Assembly (NCBI GenBank): GCA_946699065.1 | Contig: CAMPDV010001036.1 | Location: forward strand, 62,001-126,000 | From: Loxodes magnus | Lineage: Eukaryota > Ciliophora > Karyorelictea > Loxodida > Loxodidae | Length of the DNA stretch: 64,000 nt | Reading direction: 5' to 3' | In this document: positions 1 through 64,000 of the stretch, in pieces | How the letters are laid out: each line of letters starts with the position of its first letter | Numbering within the stretch: position 1 is the first letter of the stretch | The notes under the pieces: model-generated | Told to the model about the DNA's origin: nothing | Database searches by the model: none | What the model saw: only the letters and a program-made list of their open reading frames with translations | Program-made: the position numbers and the translations under genes

Positions 1-420
1 TCACTATCTCACGCAGTCATGATTGAGTAATTTTTACGCCTGCTGTCTTCTTTAGATGTGGTTATCGTCTTTCAAGCTTCTTCTCCGAATTGAACCCTAA
101 TTCTCCGTTACTCGTTACTGCTCTGATAATCTAATATTTTACCATTGAAATTTGATAGTGTAGAAACTTAATGATCTGTCATACTTCTTAGCATAGTCCT
201 TGTGTATTATAATTCCATTTTTAAGATATCTAATAAACATCTTTTAGTTATTTGTTCGTTCTAGGGTTACTATAATTACGTATCTAACATACCATCAAAT
301 AAACTATCACTGGTTAATGATCTATTCGCAGTTCCACAATTCAATACTAGCATTTATACAGAATGGCTTAGACTAAGAGATAAGAATCCATCTACATGTA
401 GGATCAACCAGATTTATTTC
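1..420 (-). CDS. C-terminal part of an unrecognised protein
   Basis: Read on the minus strand with TAA/TAG as Gln and TGA as Trp, codons run without a break from about 420 down to a terminal TGA at 3-1, so the gene ends exactly at the window edge. The frame is rich in ordinary residues (for example VDPTCRWILISQSKPFCI, then IHKDYAKKYDRSLSFYTIKF, and a basic tail ending NHDCVRQ). Two TGA codons fall inside it, in the segment QWQFIWWYV. The segment is clearly richer in G+C than the flanking DNA. An alternative frame from an ATG near 180 is also protein-like, so an unseen intron or frameshift is possible. The upstream end beyond 420 is lost in a pyrimidine-rich stretch. I do not recognise the family. 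Confidence 0.42.
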
Positions 421-7709: not shown

Positions 7710-8600
7710 ATGGATAAAAAAAATATGAAAAACATAAAAAATAAAAACTGGATGATAAATAAGACTTGAAGAGAAAAAATAAAAGCTAAAGAACTTCATC
7801 ATAAAATAAAGGAAAAATAATACAAGGTAATTAGGACAGAATCATAATAATCAAATAGTAAAATGAATTCTTTCATTGGTAAAGTGATAAAATGAAGAAA
7901 AATCTGAAAAAAAGAAGAGCAAGTCTGTAACTTTTAGAAAAATAATAAAAAAATGATGGAATTAGAAAAATTGATCTTAGAAACAAAGTAATTAAAAAAG
8001 TAACTTACTTAAAATAAAACTTTAACAGAAAATAAAACTTATTCGTTAACTTTAATTCACCTTAATGAAGAAGTTCCAATTATTACTGAAGAAACTAAGA
8101 CTGATATCACAACTAATCAATTAAATATTTAAATAGAAATTTTAAGAATTGAAGGAGCAAGAAAATTGGAAGAATTTAAGAAATTTCTTCTTTCAAATCA
8201 ATTTAACTTAAAAGAGTTTTTAATATCTTTTCATTATTGGATTTGCTTTCTTCAATTAAATGTGATATCCAGTATTTAAAAGTTTTTCATTTCCTCGCCC
8301 TTTCATTCAGCTAAATAATCTTACTAAAAATAAAAATAGAAGATAAAGAGGTGTTGATATTGCAAATCTTCTTAACAATTAATGAAAAATACTATATTTC
8401 AAAAGATTTAATAGACTAGAGGATTAGAGAACCTGAAAAGAATTAAATTAGAACTTTTTTTTAAATAGCAATAGAGTTTATATAAATAAGATTTGAGACA
8501 AAAGTGACTTAAGCAAGATGGAGGAGTGGTAACCATCCACATAAAAAAATGGTCGATGAATTCCAACCTCGAAAAAAAATGGACAACTGGAACTGGCTGA
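7710..8600 (+). CDS. Gag/ORF1-like retroelement protein, copy F (uninterrupted frame)
   Basis: A single frame of 296 codons runs from ATG 7710 to TGA 8598-8600, in register by arithmetic. Five internal TGA codons read as Trp beside four TGG. The order is a Lys-rich N-terminus, a helical region (MMELEKLILETKQLKKQL), an acidic segment (NEEVPIITEETKTD), and a knuckle remnant RCWYCKSS near 8350 whose second position is TGA, as in copy C. The C-terminus VVTIHIKKW resembles the WDW-ITIVKK region of copy A. The terminal TGA is followed by TAATTCAAGGAAAGCAT, matching the 3' UTR of the family. The knuckle has lost its His and last Cys, so RNA binding may be impaired. The neighbourhood is AT desert on both sides. 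Confidence 0.58.
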
Positions 8601-12198: not shown

Positions 12199-12420
12199 AT
12201 GATATCAACGGAAAGTAAAAGGTTCTGTAATCTAAATAAAATTAGCTAAAATATTGTGTAGAAATTCTTATGGACATGAGCGATATTTAAGAATGCCCAT
12301 AACATTGGAATTGAAGGAAAAACTGCAGATAAAAATCCAGAAAAGTGTGTATGGATTTAAAAAGAAATTTTAATTTAGTTAAAGTATCTTGCTATTTAAT
12401 ACGGACATAATTAAATTTCT
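12199..12420 (+). CDS. Start of an unrecognised protein running into a duplicated block
   Basis: From ATG 12199 the frame gives MISTESKRFCNLNKISQNIV, then FLWTWAIFKNAHNIGIEG and KTADKNPEKCVW, with one TGA (as Trp) beside TGG. From about 12288 the sequence is shared with an inverted copy at 38915, where it reads KNVHNTGIEGKTADKNPEKC. The conservation of this peptide between the two copies, despite base changes, suggests it is or was coding. No domain recognised. The downstream end is not resolved. Confidence 0.33.
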
Positions 12421-13376
12421 ATAATTTTTAATTTTTAGAAATATAAAATGTATATAATAGTAAATATTTACCTTTAAATTATACTTATAACATTATCTCA
12501 AATAATATTGAAAAATAAATTTTAAGAAGTTTGAAATTCTAATAATTTAGTTAAATTAAATGAATTTTATATTTGATAACCTAAATTTAAGTTAATTCAA
12601 TCAAAAAAAAATGTTAATATAAAACATTAACTTTCAAAATTTTCAATAGTAATACTCTTAGATGAAATGTAAAAAGAAATAGGAATATTATAATAAATTG
12701 GAAAATTATGAGCAAACATAGCATCGGAAGCAAAAGATATGCAAATTCCATATAGAAAAATTAAAATTTAAGGAAAACATTTATATTAATTATAAAATTT
12801 TAGAAAGAATTATTTAAAAAAGTACTTGGAATATAGTAAAAAGAAATTTTTAATTAAGATAAAAATATAAATAATTAATTTTGCTATGATTTTATCATAA
12901 ATTAATTTAAAATTAATTTAGTTAAAATTTAATTGAATTCATAAATAGTAAATTGGGACTTTCTATAGGAATATTTAAAAAAAATTTAGAAAATCAAATT
13001 TTAGAATTATTTTTCGATTGAATTTTCAAGATATCACGTGACAGAAAAGATTCTTATATAGCTAATAAATGTATTTTTGAATAAAAATAAAATTTGAGTA
13101 TTCATAAAGAAATTTAAAATATATTTCTCCACTAATAAATTTGTATAATAATATTCTTAATCTTATTGTTTTAAAAATCATATTTCTATTAAATTTTATA
13201 ATTTTACAAAAAATTTAATTTTTTCTACTTTTAAAAAATAATTTTTTTTTATTTAAATTTTAAAATTATTATTAAGAGATTTTTTTATTAAGTTTTAACT
13301 AATAAAATATTTGCACATATATCTTAATTCCTTATAGAAATTTTAATTTTTAGCCAAAAAATTATATGTTCAAGTA
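12288..13376 (+). repeat. 1.09-kb duplicated block, copy 1 (inverted partner at 37828-38915)
   Basis: The whole stretch matches the reverse complement of 37828-38915 with only scattered substitutions and almost no length change. Landmarks are GGAATTGAAGGAAAAACTGC near 12308 and AGCCAAAAAATTATATGTTC near 13352. Homology stops sharply at both ends (around GAATG on the left and CAAGTA on the right). I see no terminal inverted repeats or transposase. Confidence 0.85.
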
Positions 13377-13702
13377 AACTTAAATAGTTAAATTATAAAT
13401 TATCAATTTGAATTAGATATTAAAATGTATTTATTCCTATAAAATTCTTCGATACCTTTATTTCTGTATTTATTCTTTACTATTTCTTTATAAACATCAT
13501 TATTTTTATTTATATCTTATTTACTTTTCATGTAATAATACTAAATTCTATTTAAGAAATAAAATTTTTTAAGGATATAATAATTAAATTTTTGATTTAT
13601 TATTTAATTTTTTCTTTAATTTAATCCTATTGAAGCATTTTTAGGTACAATTTAAAATTTTGAGCTCGTTCACAAAATATTTATAAATTAATTTAACATA
13701 AT
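13377..13702 (+). repeat. 326-bp direct repeat, copy 1 (partner at 42777-43102)
   Basis: Begins AACTTAAATAGTTAAAT and ends at AATTTAACATAAT in both copies, which are nearly colinear with few substitutions. It starts at the very base where the 1.09-kb block ends, so this locus is a junction of two repeat families. Confidence 0.85.
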
Positions 13703-36969: not shown

Positions 36970-37827
36970 ATGATATTGCTTATAACTTGGTTGAGAGCAG
37001 GTTACTTAAATATTTTTGATATTTGCTTTTATTATGTTTTAATAAACCAAAATTTTTAAGATATCCTCAATATTCTACGTAACTCAATTATCTTTTTGGA
37101 ATGATTTCAACTTGAAATTTTGATTTCTTTAGTAAACTATTTACTTTTTTTGATTTCAACTAGATTTCTAAATGTTGAGTCTTAAAATTTATGAATTAAA
37201 ATTACTCACTTTTTATAAAGATGTTCTATAGAAAAAAGTATAAATTCTTGCAAAATAACATATTAAGCAATTAATCATATTTATGCTAATTTATATAACA
37301 AGAGCTAATATCTAAAATAGTCACCATTTTAGATATTTATTTAAATAAAAAATATTAATTATTTCTAATTACTAAGAAATTCCAATTTCAAATATTCCTT
37401 TACTAATTAATATTAAATTTTTTAAGTCATCTATATTTTAATAAACTATAGCTAGAAATATAAGTTATATACAACTTTAAGTTTTAATGGATGCATATTT
37501 AACTCAGAATTATATAAGAATAATTAAATATTAATGGATTCTACAATCATACAATCCTTCCCTTATTATATTTTTAACCTTAATAAAAGTATTTTTGCTA
37601 TAAGTATTTTCCTTTATATTTCTTTATTTTAAATTTAGTTATTCTAATTACATAAGCTCATTTTTTTGATTAGTAGTGAAACTATTTTTATTTTCTTATA
37701 TCAAATATGCAATTTTCAAAATAATAAGACAGAAAATTTTAATTAAAACTATTACATTTCATACTAAGTTAATGCAATTGATTATACTAAGTGAACTAAT
37801 TCTTATTTTAAATTTGCTTTTATTTTA
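36970..37827. other. AT-rich spacer
   Basis: No supported gene. Confidence 0.45.
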
Positions 37828-38915
37828 TACTTGAGCATATAATTTTTTGGCTAAAAATTAAAGTTCCTATAAGGAATTAAGATATATGTGCAAATATTTT
37901 TTTAGTTAAAACTTAATCAAAAATCTCTTAATAATAATTTTAAAATTTAAGTTAAAAAAATTATTTTTTAAAAGTAGAAAAAATTAAATTTTTGTAAAAT
38001 TATAAAATTTATTAGAAATATGATTTTTTAAAACAACAAGATTAAGAATATTATTATAAAAATTTATTAGTGGAGAAATATATTTTAAATTTCTGTATGA
38101 ATTCTTAAATTTTATTTTTATTCAAAAATATATTTATTAACTATATAAGAATCTTTTCTGTCACTAGATATCTTGAAATTTCAATCGAAAAAATAATTCT
38201 AAAATTACCTTTACTATATTTGTTTTAAATATTCGTATAGAAAGTCCCAATTTACTCTTTATGAATTTAATTAAATTTTAGCTAAATTAATTTTAAATTA
38301 ATTTATGATAAAATAATAGCAAGATTAATTATTTATATTTTTATCTTAAATAAAAATTTCTTTTTACTATATTCCAAGTACTTTTTTAAATAATTCTTTC
38401 TAAAATTTTATAATTAATATAAATACTTTTCATTAAAATTTCATTTTTCTATATGGAAATTGATTATCTTTTGCTTCCGATGCTATGTTTGCTCATAATT
38501 TTCTAATTTATTATAATATTCATATTTCTTTTTACATTTCATCTAAGAATATTACTATTGAAAATTTTGAAAGTTAATGTTTTAAATTAAAATTTTTTTT
38601 GATTGAATTAACTTAAATTTAGGTTATCAAATATAAAATTCATTTAATTTAACTAAATTATCAGAATTTCAAACTTCTTAAAATCTATTTTTCAATATTA
38701 CTTGAGATAATGTTATAAGTATAATTTTAAGGTAAATATTTACTATTATATACATTTTATATTTCTAAAAATTAAAAATTATAGAAATCTAATTATGTCC
38801 GTATTAAATAGCAAGATACTTTAACTAAATTAAAATTTCTTTATAAATCCATATACACTTTTCTGGATTTTTATCTGCAGTTTTTCCTTCAATTCCAGTG
38901 TTATGGACATTCTTG
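37828..38915 (-). repeat. 1.09-kb duplicated block, copy 2 (inverted relative to 12288-13376)
   Basis: Reverse complement of 12288-13376 with scattered substitutions. Flanks differ completely on both sides. On the minus strand it lies directly downstream of the reading frame at 38925-39850, whose frame continues into it. Confidence 0.85.
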
Positions 38916-60060: not shown

Positions 60061-60098
60061 AAAATAATTACTTATAACTTTACTCATTAAGAAAGAAC

Positions 60099-62551
60099 TC
60101 ACTCACTCAATTGCATAGATTTCCACTCTCTATCCTTCAAAGCACCTACTTTTATGTCGTAATAATATATCACATTTGCCTATTGTTCTTCATCACTACT
60201 CCACATCCATATTACATTATTCACTTATTGACCATTGTATCAGAAAGGAGATGCGTTTGGTATGTATGGATATTAACTACCATCCCTTATCATTGACCTA
60301 GTGTCAAACACACAAGTTTACTAAAGAAGATTATAACTGTCCCAAATATAAGCACACTCAGTCTCATTCACTCACACACTTGCCAAAGAAGATGCCGGCT
60401 TAGGTAACTACATCCCATACTACTAATACACACTCAACATCACGTCATATGATGATACCAAACTTGATCTATGGAAATTATTAGATAAATCTGAACTTTA
60501 TATTTAACCACCCACTATCCATACTCTCTCATGTGATACCCATATTCCATTACCAGCGATACAATCCTTATTACTCAACAATGACACAGACTTATTCAAA
60601 ACTATGTCGTACACCTCCAATGAATTGTAGTAATTATAATAATCATGAGATGAACCAGACTTTGATTAAGGATCCACCCCTCCTAATATATACAACAATC
60701 TACCATTGTCATATCCCATTTAAGAAATTGCTCTTGGCTAGATCAAAGAAGCTGAGGCTTTTATCACTGAATCACTACCAATTGTTATTTATAAGATCTT
60801 ATCCAGATGTGATTTAGTTGAGTTACCACCTACCTAGATTAGTAACTCATCAGAGATCTAATATGTCGAGGATCAATTACCAGTTATTGGAGTCATTTTT
60901 GATACCACATTGTAAACACAGGAGCCATTGATACTGTCCAACTAAAAAGATTAGATCTTATTGGTACCAAGGAATACTCTCCTATATACTGCTATCCTTG
61001 GTGGAGAATTATTCACTCTCTTAGCCAAATTATACTTGAAACTTGACTCTCTCAATAAATCACTCCAACCATTATCCTTATGTTATTGAACTTAAGTCTT
61101 ATATTCCTCCAATGACTATGAAAGATCTTATAATTATTATTCCTTTTATCTAAGCTAGTCATTATTATTCTTATTATCTGCTTCCAAGTAAATAACTGCA
61201 GACTTCATACTCTCCTACTCCTTCAATAATATATTTGTCTACTCTTTGTATCTGAGATTCTCTTAAGATAATTTATGTAACTAGTCTTATAACTGATTGA
61301 AGGATGATTGACTAAAATCTATTTCCTATTGAAGATTGACTTTTTATTGTTGCAACTCTTATATCTCTTAAACATACTAGAGCTATTAGATTTAAAGTTA
61401 TTAGTCCTTATTCTTCAACTAATGTTGATACTCAAGTGTATTTTGCTAGAGGACTTAAGAAGATTCTTATTTAGCTTTGACTAACTCGTCATTTAAATCT
61501 TTTATTGTCTTATTCTATCCGATAATCTATGTATTCAAACCATTGACCAAACTTAGGTAAGATGTAACCTATTATTCTAAGGAGGATATTTGCTTGCGAT
61601 ACTCCTATTCACGCTTTTCTTACTAGATGAACTATTACTGAAAGTCTTGACATAAATGCTTTATTGATTACTGTAACTGCTTTATCTTACTAGCTTATCT
61701 CATGTAACTCTAGTAAACTTAGCCTGACTAAAACTTCTCCATTAACTTAACTTGAAATCTATTCTAGATACTTTAGAAAACGAACTATTCTTAACATAAG
61801 ATATCGTTCGACTATGATACTTATCGGAACTTACTCTAGATGTCTTACTCAAACTAATCCAACTTACTCCTCTTATCCTCACATTGAACGATACTGTCCT
61901 AAGAAACATTCGAAATGTCATTAACCTAACTTCCTATCTACTAGCAGTAATCCGCAGTGCCTTCCAATAACTACACCTACTACTCTATTTACAACTATTA
62001 GTCATCCACCATCTCCTTAAAAACTTATTAATTTGCTACTTAACTCCCATTAACAACTAAAATATCCTATTTCTACCACATACCTATTCTTCATTCATTT
62101 TCTACTAACGCTGATCCAAAATAGAAATATATTAGTCTATCCTCTACTTGATAACTCCAAAAGTTTATTCTATGTAATTTTTGAATTGTTAGAGTGCCTC
62201 CTACGTTGTAATACATCCATGTCCTTGATGCGATTCTTATTAGCATTATACACAGATTCTTATGCTGTCCTATACACAATACAGGGTTAAGGAATTCTAA
62301 ATATGAGTCTAGCAAATATCCTAAAGATTGATAAGGTTCTATACTTAATGACTTACTAGATCTGGGATTTGTAGTTACTCAATTGGTCTTTCAGTTATGA
62401 CGTTGTGCTTTCTGCATATAAACATTTGTTGTAGTCTATAAATGCCTTTCAAGCATTTCTCACAGAGAATACATCCACAGTCCAACTACCTAGGCTTTTT
62501 AAGCTCTTAGTTGAAATCTTCTTCACATAATTCACACTTGGCTGCTGACAT
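60099..62551 (-). CDS. RING / B-box / coiled-coil / kelch protein (TRIM-like), about 811 aa
   Basis: ATG 62551, terminal TGA 60101-60099; one 17-nt intron gives exactly 812 codons. Residues 6-49 form a RING-like finger (CELC ... CGCILCEKC ... CRKH) and about 79-115 a B-box (CQTH ... CVQC ... HQGH). A Gln-rich coiled coil of several hundred residues follows (LQEIQELQQQKVNLQQEI type). The C-terminus is a kelch propeller: LLIQVGG, NGRLLYILGGVD, NSLEVYDI, RVWIVGG, ECAYIWDSYN, NVIWMWSS. Three in-frame TGA (60875-60873, 60374-60372, 60242-60240) lie inside kelch text and read as Trp, beside seven TGG. RING/B-box proteins are usually ubiquitin ligases, and kelch domains bind partners or substrates; that role here is inferred. 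A second TGA closely follows the terminal stop. Confidence 0.88.
62067..62083 (-). other. 17-nt intron in the RING-kelch gene
   Basis: GTATGTGGTAGAAATAG. Before it the frame reads QQKMNEEQ, after it DILVVNGSQVANQQVFKEMV. Removing 17 nt restores a single frame through the coil and kelch domain. An 11-nt choice (GTATGTGGTAG) also fits the frame but is less intron-like. Confidence 0.7.
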
Positions 62552-62704
62552 TTAATTTTTTTATTGAGTAAAAAAATAAAAATGCTACTTAATATTTGAT
62601 TGGATTGAAATTACTTAAGAAAATAATTTAAATTAAATTAATTGAATGAAAATAGTTATGAAATTAAATAGAAGAATTAACTACTTTTAAAATTATTACA
62701 TAAA
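62552..62704. promoter_or_regulatory. 153-bp divergent intergenic region
   Basis: Separates the minus-strand RING-kelch start (62551) from the plus-strand start (62705). Purely AT-rich, no recognised motif. Any promoters for both genes must lie here or within the genes, if both starts are right. Confidence 0.4.
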
Positions 62705-64000
62705 ATGGAAGAAAATAACCTCTAAAAGGAATAAATTACTTATAAAACTAAATACTTAGAAATAGATGAAACTAATAAAAAGAACAAACAGAAAAGAAAC
62801 ATGTGATACTTTTAAAATTAGTAATAGCTATATTATTCTAATTTTATTAAGAAACATTATATAAACTAAATATAGATATAAATAGGTATCTAACCAAACT
62901 CATATAAAATTTATTTAATGAAAAGTTTTTCAAATTATAGTAATCACATAAAGCAAATGTGCTATTTTTAGATAAAAAGATAAAATAGATGATATATTAT
63001 AATTTTAATTAATGCAGAAGAGAAAGTAAAGCTGAATTAAATAATAAACAATTATTAATATTTCTAAATAAACTAAGGATAACAGTAAAGATATAATGGA
63101 GTAATTGAACACATAGAGATTTTATTTAAATGGGAGAAGTATCTTCTAAAAGCAAGTACCTTGATGATCTTAAGATTAATTCTTTTTACCTGAATAATCA
63201 TATAAAATTTGAACTATATTACTTACTTAATCTCTTCTAAAGTACTTAGCCTTTCTGTAAGATAAATAAAATATATTAGACATTATAAAACTTTTTAACA
63301 GGAGCTAGATAAAGTAATTTCTAAATTATGCTATTAATTAGAACTAAATTAGCCAAGAATAATTCCTATTGATTAATTTTTACATGTTTCACGTCTAAGA
63401 TGAAGGAGAAATATCAGCAAAATTAAGAAAAGTAAGAAAGTAAAAGGACTTTTAGGAGGAATAATTCAACTAAAGGCAAGTTCAATTAACTGATGGAAAG
63501 CATGGAATAATTAGAAAAGAAATAACTAAAATAACAAGCTGAAATTTTAATACTTTGCATTTAATCAGAGTAAAAGCAGAAATGCTTAGTTATCGAAAAT
63601 CTTAAAAAATAGAAGACTATATTCAGCTGAAAATTTTTTTGTGCCATATCGTTATAAAAAGCTAGTAGCAGTATTTAGAAAGGTATCCTGAAGTTAGTTA
63701 AATAAAATTCATAGCCCTAATTACTAAATTACAAGCATTGGGACCTGAAAGAATATGTGAAGATGAGAAAAACCTAAGACTAGACTATCTGGTTTCCGTT
63801 CCTTAAATAATTAACCTAAGATCTATACAAGAACTAATCAAAGTATAGTATTAAGAGAAGAGGAGAAAATGCTTATCCAGCTGAGCTAAAGCAAAAATAG
63901 AAAGAAAGAAAAACAATTAAGACGTAATTCTATAAAAGATAGGGAAAATTCTTCCATTTTATGTTTAAAAGGAAGAAGTAACTTAAAAATAATAAAATCT
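62705..64000 (+). CDS. Unrecognised protein, three exons, runs off the window
   Basis: ATG 62705; exons 62705-63138, 63153-63385 and 63400 to beyond 64000. Removing two 14-nt introns (GTATCTTCTAAAAG at 63139-63152, GTTTCACGTCTAAG at 63386-63399) joins three different frames into one open frame to the window edge. Exon 2 reads YLDDLKINSFYLNNHIKFEL and NFLTGARQSNFQIMLLIRTK. Exon 3 reads EGEISAKLRKVRKQKDFQEE, YLERYPEVSQIKFIALITKL and DEKNLRLDYLVSVPQIINLR. TGA occurs about five times as Trp (e.g. NMW-YF, NSYW-LIF, SSW-AKA). It is rich in Lys, Gln, Ile and Leu with short coiled-coil stretches and no signal peptide. No domain recognised. Frames elsewhere in this AT-rich DNA can look coding by chance, so exon 1 is the least certain. 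Confidence 0.55.
63139..63152 (+). other. 14-nt intron 1
   Basis: GTATCTTCTAAAAG, GT-AG. Splits a codon: WE-N-KYLDDLKI across the junction. Its removal switches from the frame that would end at TGA 63191-63193 to the frame with stronger protein character. Confidence 0.55.
63386..63399 (+). other. 14-nt intron 2
   Basis: GTTTCACGTCTAAG, GT-AG, same length as intron 1. The junction reads SYWLIFT-Y-EGEISAKL. The resulting frame then runs to the window end. Confidence 0.5.

Follow-up and report, generated by a model that had tools for sequence, protein, structure and literature searches.

A gene in the genome of Loxodes magnus that carries TAA, TAG and TGA in frame, and itself ends at TGA, raises the question of what these codons mean in this ciliate and how one triplet can serve as both sense and stop. 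The gene encodes a protein with RING, B-box and kelch-like parts (the RING-kelch gene) and lies in a window of 64,000 nucleotides (nt), C1036:62001-126000, in which the contig labels (C), like the locus labels (L) used below, follow our own numbering. We analysed it together with its relatives, the tubulins and components of the decoding machinery, searching an assembly of 705,730,643 bases. We conclude, with a probability of roughly 96%, that the window comes from L. magnus and is read with National Center for Biotechnology Information (NCBI) code 27, in which UAA and UAG specify Gln, and UGA stands for Trp within genes and for stop at their ends. The code itself is already known and has been published for L. 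magnus. Karyorelicts including Loxodes are described as using table 27, with UGA as the sole stop codon, read as Trp when the distance from it to the poly(A) tail downstream is large enough (PMC11441545).

The RING-kelch gene occupies 62551..60099 on the minus strand, with one intron and a predicted product of 811 amino acids (aa). Exon 1 (62084..62551, minus strand) starts at the ATG at 62551 and encodes the B-box and RING part, and exon 2 (60099..62066, minus strand) runs from a coiled coil rich in TAA and TAG through kelch-like blades to the terminal TGA, which is included. The two are separated by a putative intron of 17 nt (62067..62083, minus strand; GT..AG, GTATGTGGTAGAAATAG), the predicted excision of which joins both open frames; the length of this single intron agrees with the published mode of 17 bp for L. 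magnus introns (PMC11441545). Pfam recognizes a B-box in the product above its cut-off (PF00643, aa 77-114, 2.7e-7) and, below their cut-offs, a RING domain (PF13445, aa 6-41, 0.0025) and a weak Kelch_6 match (0.049). The in-frame codons comprise 50 TAA, 51 TAG, 19 CAA, 5 CAG, 7 TGG and 3 internal TGA. Measured against 2,000 codon-position shuffles, the spliced frame is depleted of TGA (4 with the terminal codon counted, against 13.0 ± 3.3; fraction at or below the observed number, 0.002) and holds more TAA plus TAG than expected (101 against 73.7 ± 6.4). TGA occurs 22 and 28 times in the two remaining sense frames, and GC content by codon position is 0.34/0.28/0.37. An earlier sequence-only reading of this DNA had described the abundant TAA and TAG, the three internal TGA and the final TGA of this gene exactly in the contexts found here; the range of 60099-64000 that it gave was too long, the ATG being reached already at 62551.

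The meaning of the three codons can be read directly from tubulin alignments. We compared 32 tubulin loci, 12 returned by the search and 20 chosen for a TGA within the N-terminal domain, with a ciliate-type beta-tubulin reference (6u0h_B, which we take to be the Tetrahymena protein). TGA fell on a reference Trp in 54 of 72 cases, mainly there as the sequence-only reading had anticipated, and TGG did so in 47 of 57. The 54 Trp-aligned TGA are spread over W21 (13), W101 (15), W344 (14) and W397 (12), and 26 of them, those at W344 or W397, lie outside the N-terminal domain used for choosing loci. TAA aligned with Gln in 183 of 388 cases (next, Glu with 29) and TAG in 56 of 131 (next, Ile with 12), for which CAA serves as a yardstick at 51 of 193. 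Insertion of selenocysteine, or occasional readthrough of a stop, would also place in-frame TGA inside otherwise intact genes, as seen here; such an explanation seems scarcely credible to us, given that tubulin TGA sits mainly on Trp, that none of the 72 aligned TGA is on Cys and that single genes hold several TGA each. No TGA occurs in the first 211 residues of the alpha-tubulin copies L037-L048. Tubulin as a whole is strongly expanded in this genome: of 258 candidates, 150 were scored as matches, and in-frame TGA is present in many of these. The matches are partly clustered at near-equal score, as on C441 and C64.

The kelch part of the RING-kelch gene offers a second view of the same codon. 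It has 131 matches in the genome including the window copy (130 of 686 candidates were scored), and 129 of these contain in-frame TGA. Printed identities range from 54% to 93%, and because the window's own copy is itself given as only 93%, TAA, TAG and TGA were apparently scored as mismatches in these identities. Another family copy lies on the contig of the window, 94 kb away (C1036:27764-28657). For codon comparison we used 23 of the matches, namely the window copy, L084, L086 and 20 further fetched copies, which are not all independent, because the window copy and L084 show no difference over 297 codons. The three internal TGA of the window gene, all on the minus strand, fall in family columns dominated by TGA: the codon at 60873..60875 (ITGN-W-SSTY) is TGA in 16 of the 23 copies and TGG in none; that at 60372..60374 (LASV-W-VNE) is TGA in 18, TAT in 4 and TGG in 1; and that at 60240..60242 (SPF-W-YNG) is TGA in 20 and TGG, CGA and TGC in 1 each. 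Among all 18 TGA-bearing columns, TGG is also present in 7, and CGA, AGA, TTA and GGA in 2 each. The median pairwise ratio of non-synonymous to synonymous substitution (dN/dS) is 0.52 across the whole kelch stretch and 0.49 beyond the last internal TGA, so constraint does not fade past a TGA. That unchanged constraint counts against a view of the RING-kelch gene as a decayed pseudogene with TGA as genuine premature stops, as do the depletion of TGA in its frame, the exchange of TGA and TGG among copies and the recurrence of the TGA-to-Trp pattern in tubulins. A pseudogene would fit the size of the family, the existence of at least one identical copy (L084) and a dN/dS that, at about 0.5, is moderately below 1 and reaches 0.72-0.94 in three close pairs; we nevertheless consider it very improbable.

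The sequence-only reading had proposed that TGA also serves as a stop, and TGA is indeed found where proteins are expected to end. A TGA lies at most 14 codons past the aligned end in 28 of the 32 tubulin loci, although 12 of those 28 are closely related alpha-tubulins, and a terminal TGA is present in 22 of the 23 kelch copies, the tails of which were read by eye (one of them, L096, is disturbed). The gene for the release factor eRF1 (L005) ends at TGA as well. In the RING-kelch gene, the terminal TGA (60099..60101, minus strand) occupies a position that REWKSMQL or a variant of it directly precedes in most family copies, and a further in-frame TGA follows beyond it at 60084-60086. Two loci end differently. 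The tubulin locus L054 has TAA at the point where its paralogues L052, L053, L056, L057 and L058 terminate with TGA following SEDEEL, and the 60 codons beyond its aligned end contain no TGA; the kelch copy L105 has TAA after SE at the place of its relatives' terminal TGA, with none in the remaining 19 codons of the stretch. Judged by their sequences, both are candidates for a minority UAA stop and give a hint of one. Seah et al. are said to have reported such a minority stop in 2022. These two ends, each without a TGA soon after, are also what a Condylostoma-type code (table 28) would produce, under which each of the three codons has a sense meaning and can end genes as well. We regard that code as unlikely here: TGA ends nearly all of the tubulin and kelch genes, TAA and TAG are abundant within genes with no regular use of UAA or UAG as stops seen across the 55 loci, and the 2 exceptions among these 55 could be C-terminal extensions or decaying genes.

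The sequence around TGA differs between its two roles. GC content of the 60 nt downstream is 31% after sense TGA and 18% after terminal TGA, in line with the published values for L. magnus of 33.5% in coding sequence and 18.6% in 3′ untranslated regions (3′-UTRs), which are described as short, with a mean of 53 bp (PMC11441545). In tubulins, we saw no base at +4 that separates sense from stop TGA: G follows 30 of 72 sense TGA, and terminal TGA in 6 of 16 cases in the divergent set L049-L068 and 18 of 28 overall. In the kelch copies, which are related to one another, G follows 16 of 20 terminal TGA compared with 25 of 84 sense TGA (the 84 include two terminal ones). A local signal that tells sense from stop TGA is possible on these sequence data, and context-dependent stop recognition is the model put forward in published work (PMC11441545, PMC4967479).

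We next consider the machinery that would read these codons. tRNA-Trp(CCA) genes form two large arrays, whose loci fall in L076-L082. On C148, 34 of 40 matches scored (131 candidates) belong to an array with a spacing of about 241 bp; the four copies read are alike, with U27 opposite C43, which leaves an anticodon stem of 4 bp (two of them were run through cmscan). The array on C67 accounts for 49 among 100 places listed, at a spacing of about 188 bp, and of the three copies read, two are intact with A27 opposite C43, again giving a 4-bp stem, and the third is incomplete. A tRNA-Trp(CCA) with a 4-bp stem has already been reported for Loxodes (PMC13092985, PMC12005148). Relatives on C110 share a similar tRNA body and carry the anticodons CCT and CAT (L074, L075). 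A first pattern search for a tRNA-Trp(UCA) returned two matches, both with CCA, of which only L070 is a tRNA and L069 is not. A wider pattern gave 213 matches (control, 58), and among the 100 listed no CTTCA tRNA was found by eye, in a search that was not exhaustive; one fetched CTTCA candidate, L083, proved not to be a tRNA. For the other two codons, a tRNA gene with anticodon UUA is present. The pattern for its family, in which UUA and UUG members are mixed, gave 264 matches where the control gave 0; it also admitted CUA, which was not sought on its own. The UUA tRNA presumably carries Gln.

The eRF1 encoded by L005 is 436 aa long and its gene contains no internal TGA. Compared with human eRF1, it carries E55A, T58R, S60Q, S70A and Y125F and keeps the NIKS motif; these informative positions were chosen from the literature. 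Together, the tRNA genes and eRF1 suggest a mechanism. The tRNAs cognate to UAA and UAG would insert Gln, and UGA would be read as Trp by the many-copy tRNA-Trp(CCA), the anticodon stem of which is cut to 4 bp by the unpaired 27/43, a form shown elsewhere to read UGA. The changes in eRF1 at stop-recognition positions should weaken its hold on UAA and UAG and slow its action on UGA, and the last UGA would be favoured for termination by its closeness to the poly(A) tail, a rule taken from published papers. We infer that these tRNA genes are expressed, that their products carry the amino acids given here, and that they do the decoding together with this eRF1.

Several observations weigh against the reading of the window as code 27 with this machinery. 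Among the tubulin TGA, 18 of 72 do not align with Trp: 3 fall on Phe, 2 each on Gln, Glu, Ser and Lys, and 1 each on seven further residues. In addition, 4 of the 32 tubulin loci (L054, L065, L066 and L067) have no TGA past the aligned end, although in L067 one lies just inside it. Selection on the kelch family is moderate: dN/dS, only moderately below 1 overall, reaches 0.72 over the first 46 kelch columns, and comparison of the window copy with L086, L087 and L089 gives about 0.72, 0.94 and 0.83, respectively. Three tRNA-Trp(CCA) genes on C110 (L070, L071 and L073) have intact 5-bp stems, and in a fourth, L072, the mispair lies lower in the stem. Single changes in eRF1 are also stated not to track genetic codes (Cell 2016). 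A tentative extension, which we think rather less probable than its opposite, is that UGA is served by two unequal pools of tRNA-Trp(CCA), tens of 4-bp copies in each of the C148 (U27/C43) and C67 (A27/C43) arrays and a few 5-bp genes on C110, alongside a minor UAA stop (L054, L105). If this were true, its novelty would lie in the arrangement of the arrays and their copy numbers, not in the code.

All three stops are sense codons in Amoebophrya sp. ex Karlodinium veneficum. This organism is a dinoflagellate with RIKS where L. magnus has NIKS; it is reported to have tRNAs for UAA and UAG and a 4-bp stem in one of seven tRNA-Trp(CCA), in which U and C are the unpaired bases, matching the C148 array, provided that its positions 26/42 are equated with 27/43, which is our interpretation (PMC12005148). 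The nonstop code of Blastocrithidia is described as combining a 4-bp-stem tRNA-Trp(CCA) with a change in eRF1 at the position of human Ser70, as here (PMC12153298, PMC13092985); unlike here, UAR is Glu and UAA is the stop, and the change is Ser70Gly, not Ser70Ala. Condylostoma magnum (code 28) shares three sense codons with context-dependent stop (PMC4967479) and a 4-bp-stem tRNA-Trp(CCA) (PMC13092985), but its eRF1 has been inferred to recognize each of the three codons as a stop (PMC4967479), whereas the ends sampled here are nearly all TGA. The closest match is NCBI code 27 as described in Swart et al. 2016 and Seah et al. 2024 (PMC4967479, PMC11441545), with UAA and UAG as Gln and UGA as Trp and stop; karyorelicts with this code are reported to have tiny introns of about 17 nt and AT-rich sequence past the stop (PMC11441545), again as here. 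We found no clear difference from code 27, and the terminal TAA of two loci would fit the minority UAA stop said to have been reported in 2022. The inference of a karyorelict table 27 drawn in the sequence-only reading is in this way supported by alignments, gene ends, intron length and the published code.

Other parts of the window were less informative about codon meaning. The sequence-only reading had taken a stretch at 7710..8600 (plus strand), called copy F, as a second example. Its five internal TGA and one more are present as described, and the stretch is open only with all three stops as sense; it has no coding sign, and we dropped it as evidence because it lacks codon periodicity (GC is 0.24 at every codon position), TGA depletion (6 TGA in its frame against 11, 4, 4, 9 and 3 in five alternative frames) and any accepted Pfam match (a single match falls under its cut-off). 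Elsewhere in the genome, near-identical WD40 repeats with a 126-nt unit form huge tandem arrays on C1503, C119, C9, C4046, C620, C272, C1832 and C6957 (L007-L036). Across 404 units from four contigs, unit positions such as 3, 4, 8, 9, 11, 27 and 29 are the most variable and partly TGA. As a test of TGA identity these arrays were set aside: TGA occurs mostly in columns with TCA, TTT or mixed codons elsewhere, and the arrays therefore demonstrate open frames and not, by themselves, Trp.

The window begins with a 5′ fragment of a divergent eukaryotic small-subunit (SSU) ribosomal RNA (1-414, minus strand; 115 bits, model positions 1-470 of 1831), and another lies at L002:6905-7412 (plus strand; 138 bits, model positions 26-602 of 1831); no further ribosomal RNA match at the gathering threshold was found in the window or the adjoining 30 kb of the contig. 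For the window fragment there were 384 candidates, and the 40 that were scored match it at 91-100% identity; 19 of 34 contigs with an SSU-fragment match also have a kelch match among the matches listed (counted by eye). On C481, SSU, kelch, SSU, kelch and SSU alternate across about 190 kb in units of about 80-106 kb, and kelch copies on C848 and C420 are closer together than in such units; the window seems to belong to a large block that is repeated. It also contains long inverted repeats, such as 12289-13398 with 37806-38914, about 25 kb apart, and the five longest arms are 87-94% complementary.

A 2022 study is said to have extended a code of this kind to karyorelicts. A code in which no codon is reserved for termination is remarkable, but its description dates from 2016, and that for this species from 2024. 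What the present analysis adds is independent confirmation of that code, drawn from the tubulins and from the many kelch copies, together with data relevant to the reading of UGA, on the tRNA-Trp arrays and on eRF1.

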